Assembly (NCBI GenBank): GCA_910575705.1
Contig: CAJTFG010000002.1
Coordinates: forward strand, 124,001 to 188,000
Direction: 5' to 3'
Source of the DNA: Erysipelotrichales bacterium
GTDB taxonomy: Bacteria; Bacillota_I; Bacilli_A; Erysipelotrichales; Erysipelotrichaceae
DNA length: 64,000 nucleotides
Of the stretch, positions 10,851 to 57,851 are shown in pieces; the stretch's first letter is position 1; each line of letters begins with the position of its first letter. A program made the position numbers and the translations under genes. A model generated the notes under the pieces. That model made no database searches. It was not told the DNA's origin and worked only from the letters and a program-made list of their open reading frames with translations.

Positions 10851-10919
10851 GCATTCGTGCAAAAAAACGCCATATATATTTTGACTTATAAAATAAAGGA
10901 GCCTCTGTGAGTTGTATAG

Positions 10920-10941
10920 AGCTATCATATGTATGATAGCT
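10920..10941. repeat. Perfect 10-bp palindrome beside locus A
   Basis: AGCTATCATA and its exact complement, separated by two bases, with no T run. Outer arms CTCTGTG/CACAGAG extend the inverted repeat. It lies 12 bases past the conserved QRPAL motif of locus A in the coding direction; locus B has a similar palindrome at the matching place. Confidence 0.8.
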
Positions 10942-11332
10942 ATCGAATATGCACAGAGCCGGACGCTGATAATCTTCCCAGGTTGGTTGAAAAAGTGCCC
11001 ATTTTCCTTGTACTTTTCCATATTTTAATACGAAGTATGCGGCGAACGACACCGGATGCTTGGAAGATAAATAAAAATGCTGCGCTACCGTGAAGGTAAG
11101 ATCTGCGGAGCCTGTACATGAAGTTTGACCTAAACAGTCTATGGATTCTACTGTTTTGATATAGTGGACATTAGAAATCGTGCTTTTCGCAGATGTAAAA
11201 TCTTAAAGTATTTACTCAAAGTTATATTTTTTAACCTACCTTTATAAGAAAATCATACCAGAAAACATAGGAATGCCTTATAAGATATGAATGTTGTATG
11301 AGATGAATGAGACATGCGCGAGTTCGATTCAT

Positions 11333-54435: not shown

Positions 54436-54921
54436 ATGAAAGCTTTGTTTCCGGGTACGTTTGATCCGATCACAAAAGGGCATCTCGATCTTATCCGGCG
54501 TGCTGCCTCTTTGTTTGAGGAAGTGCATGTCGTAATGATGCTGAACCATGAAAAAAAAGCGCTTTTGGATGTATCCGTTCGGCTTACGTTGATGGAAGAG
54601 AGTTTACGGCCTATTTCCAATATCGTTTTGGATGTCTATGAAGGGTTAAGTGTACAATATGCCAAAGATCATGATATTCCGATTATGATCAGAGGGGTGC
54701 GTTCTGTGACGGATTATGAATATGAATGTCAGATAGCCTCTGTTAATCAGCTTTTGGAGCCTGAAATAGAGACGATGTTTTTATTATCAAAGCCGGAATA
54801 TGCATCTGTTTCATCGAGCAATGCCAAAGCGGTAGCAATACAGAAAGGGGATCTTTCCTCTTTTGTGGATCCGCATGTAGCGCTGGTATTATACGATGCA
54901 TATGATATGCAGAAACGCTGA
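54436..54921 (+). CDS. coaD: Phosphopantetheine adenylyltransferase
   Basis: 161 residues, fourth step of coenzyme A synthesis. N-terminal FPGTFDPITKGHLDLI with the nucleotide-binding GH, then MIRGVRSVTDYEYECQIA. The later motif reads SVSSSNAKAVA, a little different from the common SSSxVK form. Two bases after rsmD with GGAAGGAG as RBS. Confidence 0.94.
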   Translation: MKALFPGTFDPITKGHLDLIRRAASLFEEVHVVMMLNHEKKALLDVSVRLTLMEESLRPISNIVLDVYEGLSVQYAKDHDIPIMIRGVRSVTDYEYECQIASVNQLLEPEIETMFLLSKPEYASVSSSNAKAVAIQKGDLSSFVDPHVALVLYDAYDMQKR

Positions 54922-54944: not shown

Positions 54945-54991
54945 AAAAAAACAGATGGGAATCGCGATGTGCGAAATTCCTATCTGTTTTT
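54945..54991. terminator. Bidirectional terminator between coaD and the reverse transcriptase
   Basis: Long stem built from AAAAACAGAT and ATCTGTTTTT with GGAAT/ATTCC inside; it marks the boundary between the core gene and the accessory cassette. Confidence 0.8.
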
Positions 54992-55008
54992 AGAATGCGC
55001 TTACTGAT

Positions 55009-56247
55009 TTATGCGGTTTTACGAGGAGCGTCATTTCTTTTTGAATTATCGAGCGGAGGGCTCTTTGTTTGTTTTTGCGCTTGTTGTCTTGCCTTTTGCT
55101 TTCGTTTTCGCTCTTCGATTTTTTTGATCGTGTGCTGTTTGCCTTTTTCCAGATTTTCAATCGTAAAATTTTGAAAGATCTTTTTCTGCAGCTGATATGT
55201 ATGCCCTTGCTTTAAATGTCCTTGTATGCTAACGATCTGTTTGTTGATGGTTTCTAGGTCTGTACGTCCACAATAGTAATCGTATTTCATTTTATTGAAT
55301 TTACGCTGCAATCTTTTTTTGGCGCTTTTTCTTAGGCGGCGGATCACTTTTCCGCTTTCGGTGACATAGAAATGAAAGCCGATAAAATCGATTCCTTGAG
55401 AAAGGGCAGCCATTTCGGTTTTCTCATTAAAACGAAGATGCAGTTTGTGCTCGATAAAAGATTCCAAGCGAAAACGGATCTCCTTGAGCTTTTCTTTATC
55501 TTCATGGATCAATACCATATCATCCATATAGCGGATATAATATTTTATCCGCAGTTCTTCTTTGATGAAATGATCCAGGGGATTCAAATAGTAAAGAGCG
55601 AGCACTTGAGAGACCAGATTGCCTTGCGCCAGTCCGGTACCATTTTCATTTGCATAGCTGTCGATGTACATGTCAACCATAGAACGTATTTTTTCATCCG
55701 TAAATTCTTTGGCGATCAACTTCTTGATGATGTCATGATCGATGCTGGCAAAATAGCTTTTGATATCCGCTTTCAGGAAATATCCCTTATTGCCGTGCTC
55801 CTTATAAAATTTTACCAGGTGGGCCGTCAGTCGTTTTACCGCAAAATTATTTCCTTTCTCCTCCTGGCAGGCTACGTTGTCATAAATCAGTTTTTTTGAG
55901 ATTTGAGGGATTAGGACTTCATCGCAGATGGCATGCTGAATCATACGATCGCGATAAGATAATGTCTGAATCTCTCTCTCTCTTGGCTCATAGACCAAAA
56001 ATTTGCGATACCCATCAATCGCATATGTTCCGCTTCTTAGTTCATCTTGAACTTTCATGAGATTTAATCCGAGGTTCAATTCAAATTCCATGACCTCACG
56101 TTTGTTCTTTTTCCCCCGTTTTGCCTTTTGATGTGCTCGGTATAAAGCAGAAAATTCTGTCATGCGTTGAAAATCATCTTCGATGATCTCATCGATGATC
56201 GGCTTTTTTGTTTTTTCTGCTGTATTCCGATTGATGATATCTTCCAT
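55009..56247 (-). CDS. Reverse transcriptase (DGR-like or unknown-group RT)
   Basis: 412 residues. RT motifs: YEPREREIQTLSYRDRMIQHAI (finger/motif 0-1), LKADIKSYFASIDH (motif A with catalytic Asp), GLAQGNLVSQVLALYYLNPLDHF (motif B), YIRYMDDMVLIH (catalytic YMDD), IDFIGFHFY (motif D/E). After residue ~300 come a basic thumb-like region and a Lys/Gln/Arg-rich tail. There is no maturase X, endonuclease or primase domain, so it is not a group II intron RT. Motif B is QGNxxSQ: SQ is shared with DGR enzymes, but the leading Gln is the residue DGRs usually replace with Ile/Val/Leu. RBS AGAGG; twelve bases after the Avd-like gene, so one operon. Confidence 0.93.
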   Translation of the reverse strand: MEDIINRNTAEKTKKPIIDEIIEDDFQRMTEFSALYRAHQKAKRGKKNKREVMEFELNLGLNLMKVQDELRSGTYAIDGYRKFLVYEPREREIQTLSYRDRMIQHAICDEVLIPQISKKLIYDNVACQEEKGNNFAVKRLTAHLVKFYKEHGNKGYFLKADIKSYFASIDHDIIKKLIAKEFTDEKIRSMVDMYIDSYANENGTGLAQGNLVSQVLALYYLNPLDHFIKEELRIKYYIRYMDDMVLIHEDKEKLKEIRFRLESFIEHKLHLRFNEKTEMAALSQGIDFIGFHFYVTESGKVIRRLRKSAKKRLQRKFNKMKYDYYCGRTDLETINKQIVSIQGHLKQGHTYQLQKKIFQNFTIENLEKGKQHTIKKIEERKRKQKARQQAQKQTKSPPLDNSKRNDAPRKTA

Positions 56248-56259
56248 TGCGACCTCTTA

Positions 56260-56679
56260 TTATGATGGCAAATCCAAAGATTGCTGCGAATTCTTTTTCA
56301 TGATTTGCTTATGCTTGGCTTCATCACTGCGCATCCATCCAACGATCAGATTTAAACAATCATAGGTGTATTTGGATATATTGGCATAGTGTTTAGGAAG
56401 AATGCATTGCTGTTCTTTCGCAAACAGTGCCAGATAGGCGAGAAGCTTTAGCGTCGTTAATGCTTCGGACTGATAATTCCATCGTCTTCGATAAGTCTCC
56501 TTATCGATGATCTTTACTTCATTTGCTTTGTAAACCAATTCAATCAAAGTCAATGAGTAGTTCTGCATTCTGGATGTAAGAGTAAAACGAAACTTTTTTG
56601 GTGCGTTTTCTGATACCTGAAATATATAACTGCTTAAGTCTTTGATTTTTGTGGTAATTGTCAAATCGTTTAGTTTCAT
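56260..56679 (-). CDS. Avd-like four-helix-bundle protein
   Basis: 139 residues, predicted nearly all helical after a short N-terminal strand. SYIFQVSENAPKKFRFTLTSRMQNYSLTLIELVYKANEV, then LTTLKLLAYLALFAKEQQCILPKHYANISKY, and the end LNLIVGWMRSDEAKHKQ follow the layout of Avd (accessory variability determinant) and 23S-IVS four-helix proteins, including a closing GW. Avd forms a basic pentamer that binds RT and nucleic acid in DGRs. The start at 56679 has AGAGGA upstream. The assignment is by pattern and by the adjoining RT. Confidence 0.7.
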   Translation of the reverse strand: MKLNDLTITTKIKDLSSYIFQVSENAPKKFRFTLTSRMQNYSLTLIELVYKANEVKIIDKETYRRRWNYQSEALTTLKLLAYLALFAKEQQCILPKHYANISKYTYDCLNLIVGWMRSDEAKHKQIMKKNSQQSLDLPS

Positions 56680-56713
56680 ACAAAAATCCTCTTTTCTGGT
56701 ATTTTCTTTTGGT

Positions 56714-56745
56714 AAAATAAAAATGCAAGACAAATGTCTGTGCAT
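56714..56745 (-). terminator. Intrinsic terminator between the predicted RNA and the Avd-like gene
   Basis: On the minus strand, ATGCA-C-AGACA pairs with TGTCT-TGCAT (one bulge), followed by TTTTATTTT. Read-through would be needed to express Avd and RT from the upstream promoter. Confidence 0.7.
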
Positions 56746-56807
56746 CTTGCTCATACCGATGTGTGAATCTTCCTTTTCTTCCTCACCTAAAGATAGGGGA
56801 TTCACAC
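56714..56807 (-). ncRNA. Predicted ~95-nt structured RNA upstream of the Avd-RT genes
   Basis: On the minus strand a -10 TATAAT (56819-56814) places the start near 56807, at the first base of a ten-base inverted repeat (arms 56799-56808 and 56760-56769, TGTGTGAATC and its complement). The 29-base loop holds a small CCTA/TAGG hairpin and a purine-rich stretch (GAGGAAGAAAAGGAAG). The unit ends in an intrinsic terminator 30-odd bases before the Avd start codon. No convincing short ORF with an RBS fills it. Confidence 0.55.
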
Positions 56808-56813
56808 AATGTA

Positions 56814-56865
56814 ATTATAATTCATGTGTTTTAAAAAGTATATAGTTTTTTACATATTATGTTAA
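56814..56865 (-). promoter_or_regulatory. Promoters of the RT cassette
   Basis: Two overlapping candidates on the minus strand: TTAACA, 17 bases, TATACT (56865-56837), and a perfect TATAAT (56819-56814) with a weak -35. The surrounding 56810-56930 is very AT-rich, unlike the core genes around it. Confidence 0.55.
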
Positions 56866-57023: not shown

Positions 57024-57851
57024 ATGGAAGATAAGGAAAAGCGGGATGTGAGATATCATAACCTGAAAAATAAATGTATATATGTCGTCTGCTTCGCAGC
57101 GATGCTGGGGGTGCTTGGAACTGTATATTACGCTTGCTTTTTTCGTGAAATCCATATGGATTTGACACATAATGTAGAAGTGTCTTTCGTAGGTGAAAAC
57201 GGCAGCGGTCATATTGAGATAGAGAGGCATGATTTGAATTATAATCAGCGGATCCAGCCTTTTTATGACTCTTTATCGACGTCTTTCAGCAGTGACGGAA
57301 CCTTGACGAACGGAGATGAAGTCACGGTCACGATCATGTATGATAATGCTTTGGCTGAGAAATTTAACATCGTCATAGATGAAAATACGATGGTAAGAAC
57401 GGTCGAGGGATTGGCACAGAGGTTTTCTTCCAAAGATGAGATCCCTGCCGACTTTCTGCGGCGGGTCACAGAAAAAGGCGAACGATATATGAAGTCGCAT
57501 ATGGATTATATTTTGGGACAGGACTTCAATTTTGCATCCGATGCCGCACTGATCGATCAACGTATGTTACAGCGCGTATTTTTAAAAGCCAATGATATGC
57601 AGATTCATGATAAGATCATCGATATTTATCAGATGAAGGCAGAAGGAAAAAAAGAAGATGGAAGCGTATATCAGGAAACGATTTATTATATGCTTGTATT
57701 TGATGATATCAATAGTAATATGCAGTTGAGCGATCATCAGATCTATGGTGAGAAAGCGTTGTATACGGAGGAAAATCTGGGAGAGGAAACCGGTATTATC
57801 TGTTATTTTCGCAATAAATATATTTTAAGCTATGATGTTATATTGCTATAA
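57024..57851 (+). CDS. Single-pass membrane protein of unknown function
   Basis: 275 residues. A basic N terminus, one membrane helix (about 18-40), then an extracellular part. The first ~70 residues after the helix read like a beta-sandwich (NVEVSFVGENGSGHIEI, SSDGTLTNGDEVTVTIMYDNALAEKF), a pattern met in extracellular repeats of TcaA-like zinc-ribbon proteins. No catalytic motif. RBS AGAGGAACG. Divergent from the RT cassette and closed by a strong terminator. Confidence 0.75.
   Translation: MEDKEKRDVRYHNLKNKCIYVVCFAAMLGVLGTVYYACFFREIHMDLTHNVEVSFVGENGSGHIEIERHDLNYNQRIQPFYDSLSTSFSSDGTLTNGDEVTVTIMYDNALAEKFNIVIDENTMVRTVEGLAQRFSSKDEIPADFLRRVTEKGERYMKSHMDYILGQDFNFASDAALIDQRMLQRVFLKANDMQIHDKIIDIYQMKAEGKKEDGSVYQETIYYMLVFDDINSNMQLSDHQIYGEKALYTEENLGEETGIICYFRNKYILSYDVILL

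Follow-up and report, generated by a model that had tools for sequence, protein, structure and literature searches.

What does a reverse transcriptase (RT) do that is encoded next to an Avd accessory protein, as in diversity-generating retroelements (DGRs), when neither the repeats nor the target gene of such an element are found with it? This question is raised by a compact cassette in a 64,000-nt stretch of genomic DNA (hereafter, the window) from an Erysipelotrichales bacterium (assembly GCA_910575705.1, contig CAJTFG010000002.1, positions 124,001 to 188,000). Among RTs, those of DGRs are the classic error-prone enzymes, and their sloppiness at adenines has been ascribed to a residue in motif 4. 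A naturally occurring member that has lost template and target and has Gln in that motif constitutes a ready-made test of the motif-4 fidelity idea. In addition, the system could show whether hosts re-use DGR machinery beyond diversification.

The cassette and its insertion site

A sequence-only reading of the locus had recognized an RT with a YMDD motif and, twelve bases before it, a helical Avd-like protein, and both assignments were borne out (Table 1). The RT gene is a complete ORF without internal stops and its product matches Pfam RVT_1 (1.9e-16), the best solved relative being the BPP-1 bRT (8ub7, E 3.6e-43; next relative, 1e-14). The GC content by codon position (48/27/43) resembles that of neighboring genes and looks coding. 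The protein retains 23 of the 25 strongly conserved columns as well as YMDD and R74, and displays 7 residues that are unique in their own column vs a mean of 3.1 in the other RTs. The avd product scored 46.5 bits against Pfam bAvd (cut-off 40) and 1.7e-21 against the PHROG family "Avd protein of DGR", and its AlphaFold model is a four-helix bundle (pLDDT 93) whose predicted fold matches the BPP-1 Avd, both in 4dwl and in chains B and C of the DGR ribonucleoprotein 8ub7; its identity as a genuine Avd is secure. The avd gene lies upstream of the RT gene with a spacing of 12 nt (56248-56259), and one RT and one Avd were counted in the whole genome. Avd accompanies about 62% of the DGR RTs in complete genomes (PMC8934634).

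Table 1. Features of the cassette and its surroundings, in window coordinates
Feature	Position	Strand	Basis
coaD, left neighbor	54436..54921	+	adjoins right neighbor in related genomes without the cassette
Strong hairpin with A/T-rich arms, coaD–RT gap	54946..54993	.	fold -23.9 kcal/mol
DGR-clade reverse transcriptase, 412 aa, YMDD at residue 240, basic C-terminal tail	55009..56247	-	Pfam, PDB relative, trees
Codon CAA, Gln208, at the position of BPP-1 bRT Ile181	55624..55626	-	motif alignment
Avd accessory protein, 139 aa, four-helix bundle	56260..56679	-	Pfam, PHROG, AlphaFold, fold match
Candidate structured leader/ncRNA, 10-bp stem hairpin and second terminator-like hairpin	56715..56814	-	folding z -4.1
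Sigma-70-like promoter TTAACA-17-TATACT	56837..56865	-	consensus match only, 10/12 positions
Conserved 275-aa protein, right neighbor	57024..57851	+	next to coaD in cassette-free genomes

In G006 and G014, genomes that belong to the same family, the distance from coaD to the gene of the 275-aa protein is about 70-110 nt and the cassette is absent, which indicates that the ~2 kb cassette is an insertion between housekeeping genes, in agreement with the earlier description of a cassette located between core genes. The boundaries had been described as a terminator on one side and AT-rich DNA on the other, and this also agrees with the observations: on the coaD side the hairpin at 54946-54993 shows a strong stem and then T, being a probable bidirectional terminator between coaD and the RT gene, and the DNA flanking the cassette opposite to coaD has a GC content of 29.7%. 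The 275-aa protein has no Pfam match, and several of the family's genomes have its gene next to one of the HIT family.

Descent of the RT and the signature residue in motif 4

In RT trees of 93 and 72 sequences, assembled without DRT enzymes, the window RT falls inside the DGR RTs in both cases. The careful tree separates the DGR clade from group II RTs with a support of 100/100 and groups the window RT with those of the loci L195 (genome G277, same family) and L196 (G550) with a support of 98/94. Both relatives are full DGRs with A-biased TR/VR repeats: in L195 the TR adjoins the RT and two VRs lie in TIR-DUF6273 proteins, and in L196, which also encodes Avd, the order is RT-Avd-TR with the VR further on. 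The branch of the window RT (0.77) is comparable to those of these TR/VR-bearing sisters (0.67 and 0.93). Although they carry the nearest RTs, L195 and L196 differ from the window locus in their clear A-biased TR/VR, in the presence of Leu/Ile at the signature position (see below) and in their gene order; gene order in DGRs is fluid, the parts being freely permuted (PMC3521204).

Model searches gave a general RT signal. The general RT model of PADLOC scored 133 bits vs at most 94 bits for any UG/DRT model, the retron_St85 and group_II_RT_mat models reached 48.8 bits (cut-off 235) and 104 bits (cut-off 300), respectively, and an Rfam search detected no retron-like RNA and no intron RNA. No ortholog with more than 45% identity was found and the cassette is known from one assembly. 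Judged by its phylogenetic placement, the window RT is a derived DGR RT and does not form an RT class of its own. The sequence-only reading had taken the system as neither a classical DGR nor a retron; this stands for the anatomy, as no TR, VR or DUF6273 target was found and the retron model lies far below its cut-off, but not for a separate class, the RT being phylogenetically that of a DGR. The same reading had named, as evidence against its own proposal, an RT placed firmly inside the DGRs together with a TR/VR pair at another place in the genome; the placement was found, with the full support given above, and the pair was not found in the searches described below.

In DGR RTs motif 4 contains (I/V/L)GxxxSQ, vs QGxxxSP in other RTs, and this signature has been proposed to set the adenine-specific infidelity, the equivalent residue in HIV being Gln151 (PMC3521204). 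The motif of the window RT is GLAQGNLVSQ, the usual DGR form being G-(I/L)-P-(I/V/L)-GNxxSQ; it keeps SQ but replaces I/V/L by Gln and so departs from the signature, leaving a mixed motif that combines Gln with SQ instead of SP. Across 193 DGR-clade RTs the Ile181 position is occupied by I (104), V (55), L (25), P (7), T (1) and Gln (1, the window RT only), and group II intron RTs have Gln at the equivalent position. When 2.9 million viral contigs were scanned for the Gln motif, 3 matches emerged, none of them in RTs, vs at least 120 matches for the matched hydrophobic control scan of viral contigs, where 79 of the 80 matches fetched encode RTs. Several of the 7 RTs with Pro at the Ile181 position have good A-biased TR/VR, evidencing that a non-I/V/L residue alone does not abolish mutagenesis.

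A DGR RT sub-clade (L022, L104, L107, L108, L114, and L117) has a motif 4 of the form GxNPGSQxxQ, which places Pro at the Ile181 position, and has kept A-biased TR/VR. This Pro sub-clade represents a natural test of the residues that permit adenine mutagenesis.

Compared with the well-described BPP-1 element (bRT and Avd; 8ub7, 4dwl), the window cassette shares the RT clade, the SQ dipeptide, YMDD, the Avd fold and an Avd near the RT, but differs in that no TR, VR, avd–RT spacer RNA or target gene was detected, and by the Gln at the Ile181 equivalent. The DGR of phage nd12 (L206) encodes an RT that is 42% identical, with Avd upstream, and differs in its avd-TR-RT order, a VR in a downstream DUF6273 protein and the motif GIPIGNQTSQ.

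Repeats, target gene and leader RNA

A-biased imperfect repeats were scanned for in relatives whose two flanks both reach 2.5 kb or more. Strict TR/VR were detected in 76 of the 81 relatives scanned and weaker repeats in some of the remainder, the TR being located between avd and the RT, upstream or downstream, whereas the same scan detected no TR/VR at the window locus. Comparison of the cassette with the 64-kb window revealed no TR/VR and a 144-kb self-comparison around the locus no A-biased repeat. With blastn, the 2.1-kb cassette gave short chance matches only in its own 1.85-Mb genome (estimated 100% complete), a search that started from the cassette, so that a TR and a VR which are both distant from the RT would show up only within the 144 kb compared directly. 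A search of the genome for the DUF6273 target domain returned none, vs 33 in G277 by the same search. The absence of TR/VR is more than a local gap, and the earlier remark that no TR/VR is visible can be extended to the genome on the basis of the cassette blastn and the 144-kb comparison.

In six loci of Bacilli (L250, L251, L252, L198, L199, and L203) avd overlaps the RT gene and no TR/VR was found within several kb. A clade of TR/VR-less Avd-RT pairs formed by them was considered and discarded, since those included in the motif comparison retain Ile and branch in other parts of the tree; they are probably ordinary DGRs with remote or truncated parts. Elsewhere in the window, positions 10915-10969 match the sequence near 118.93 kb of G000:C2 in inverted orientation (84% over 55 nt), and the mismatches are not A-biased.

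Upstream of avd, the sequence-only reading had described a promoter and a ~95-nt unit with a 10-bp inverted repeat and its own terminator. A promoter-like site is present and the 10-bp stem was confirmed; the leader of ~100 nt folds with -30.8 kcal/mol vs -18.2 +/- 3.1 for shuffled sequences, 0 of 200 shuffles being equally stable. The second hairpin, which is bulged and followed by TTTTTATTTT, is plausibly the leader's own terminator; it was not reported by a strict terminator scan and this part of the description stays unproven. The leader matches no known RNA family in Rfam. A covariance model of the leader was run against 196 genomes of the family and 87 sources, namely the window plus 86 further loci that with few exceptions are related DGR loci; it recovered only the window's own copy besides weak scattered matches, the best of which (L062, E 0.004) is placed about 2 kb from the RT of that locus in AT-rich DNA. 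The expectation that RNA, Avd and RT stay together was not sustained, as no convincing copy of the leader RNA was found in the homologous loci searched, a data set without a close ortholog of the cassette. Homologous loci lacking the RNA had been named in the sequence-only reading as a second line of evidence against its proposal, and with this limitation of the data set the result goes against it.

Other origins of the leader were examined and rejected. As a remnant of a TR/VR or of the spacer it aligned with 146 TR regions at p values of 0.24 (best local alignment) and 0.17 (mean), and the leader region was not matched by a profile built from the 3' ends of TRs; the words that it shares with TRs, AGATTCAC and ACATCGGT, are common TR words and were chosen post hoc. 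An N-terminal extension of Avd, suggested by a frame open from a GTG at 56805, was discarded since an ATG preceded by AGAGGA provides avd with a start of its own, close to where the majority of relatives begin. The leader may be an operon-controlling element or a template of the RT.

Possible roles of the cassette

The explanation that we favor, tentatively, is that the cassette represents the protein core of a DGR, RT and Avd, that lost TR, VR and target and was most likely retained for another, non-diversifying job. This is suggested by an RT and an Avd that are intact and descend from a DGR, the lack of any TR/VR or DUF6273 target detected and the replacement of the motif-4 I/V/L by Gln, with further support from the conserved columns, the sister-like branch length and the coding-like codon-position GC. 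In such a scenario, the RT-Avd complex would still make cDNA, with near-ordinary fidelity at template adenines, and this cDNA would not home into a variable gene. The template would probably be a short structured RNA, the best local candidate being the leader that follows the promoter-like site immediately before avd, which could instead only regulate the operon; its role as a template is a guess because the leader RNA is not conserved. In a more specific and rather unlikely version, the cassette is a domesticated DGR in which RT-Avd shed its repeats, restored the ordinary fidelity residue and makes accurate cDNA from one fixed RNA, which may be its own leader, to serve a cellular function. 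If domesticated, it would be, to our knowledge, the first DGR-derived RT to have left diversification. The group II-like RT G2L4, reported as domesticated for DNA repair (PMC12337344), may be a precedent for the recruitment of an RT by its host; it differs from the window RT in belonging to another RT clade and in having no Avd.

A close rival of this re-purposing reading, possible although in our judgment doubtful, is a decaying relic, in which TR, VR and target were recently deleted, the ORFs remain open by chance and the Gln is an early hit of relaxed selection. Since the cassette comes from a single genome and has no ortholog above the identity level mentioned, recent decay would look the same. 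Decay would also fit the missing repeats and target, the failure to find an ortholog or a conserved leader RNA in any of the searches, the number of column-unique residues in the RT (7 vs 3.1) and the two adjacent changes within one motif. Conversely, the RT and avd ORFs are intact with a good start context, YMDD and 23/25 conserved columns are retained, the RT branch is not longer than those of the sisters and the change restores the exact residue of ordinary RTs, all of which argue against a relic.

It is improbable that the pair belongs to a split, trans-acting DGR, serving a remote TR/VR on a plasmid, a prophage or an unassembled part. Free permutation of the parts and remote targets are known in DGRs (PMC3521204, PMC7517822, PMC8144416) and the TR position varies among the relatives of this cassette, but blastn detected no repeat of the cassette in the genome, the surrounding 144 kb contain no A-biased repeat, the genome has no DUF6273 target and the signature residue, whose retention one would expect in an active DGR, is lost. 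Most improbable is a distinct RT/Avd/ncRNA system like DRT2/DRT9 or retrons, with the ~100-nt RNA as a dedicated template and its cDNA acting in phage defense: a promoter-led, strongly folding RNA does lie directly upstream, DRT2/DRT9 likewise combine an RT with an upstream structured RNA and several DRT systems work with a neighboring ncRNA (PMC12596737), but the RT lies in the DGR clade and not in a DRT or retron clade, DRT2/DRT9 have no Avd, generic RT models score the RT and none does so specifically, with the general PADLOC model above every UG/DRT model, no conserved copy of the leader RNA was found at other loci and the neighbors are housekeeping genes instead of a defense island. The defense or genome-editing role suggested earlier found no direct support.

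Among the relatives, the plasmid RTs of L274 (8497-10185) and L275 (8467-10167), accompanied by a divergent four-helix protein, were considered as a non-DGR group and this was rejected, as A-biased TR/VR are present on the other strand. These Aeromonas and Vibrio plasmid DGRs have an Avd-like gene that is divergent from the RT and annotated as four helix bundle or hypothetical, and their VR lies in or near a gene with an Ig-like domain. In L195 (G277:C20:1-4158) both targets combine a TIR domain with a variable DUF6273 domain at the C terminus and look like diversified immune-type sensors.
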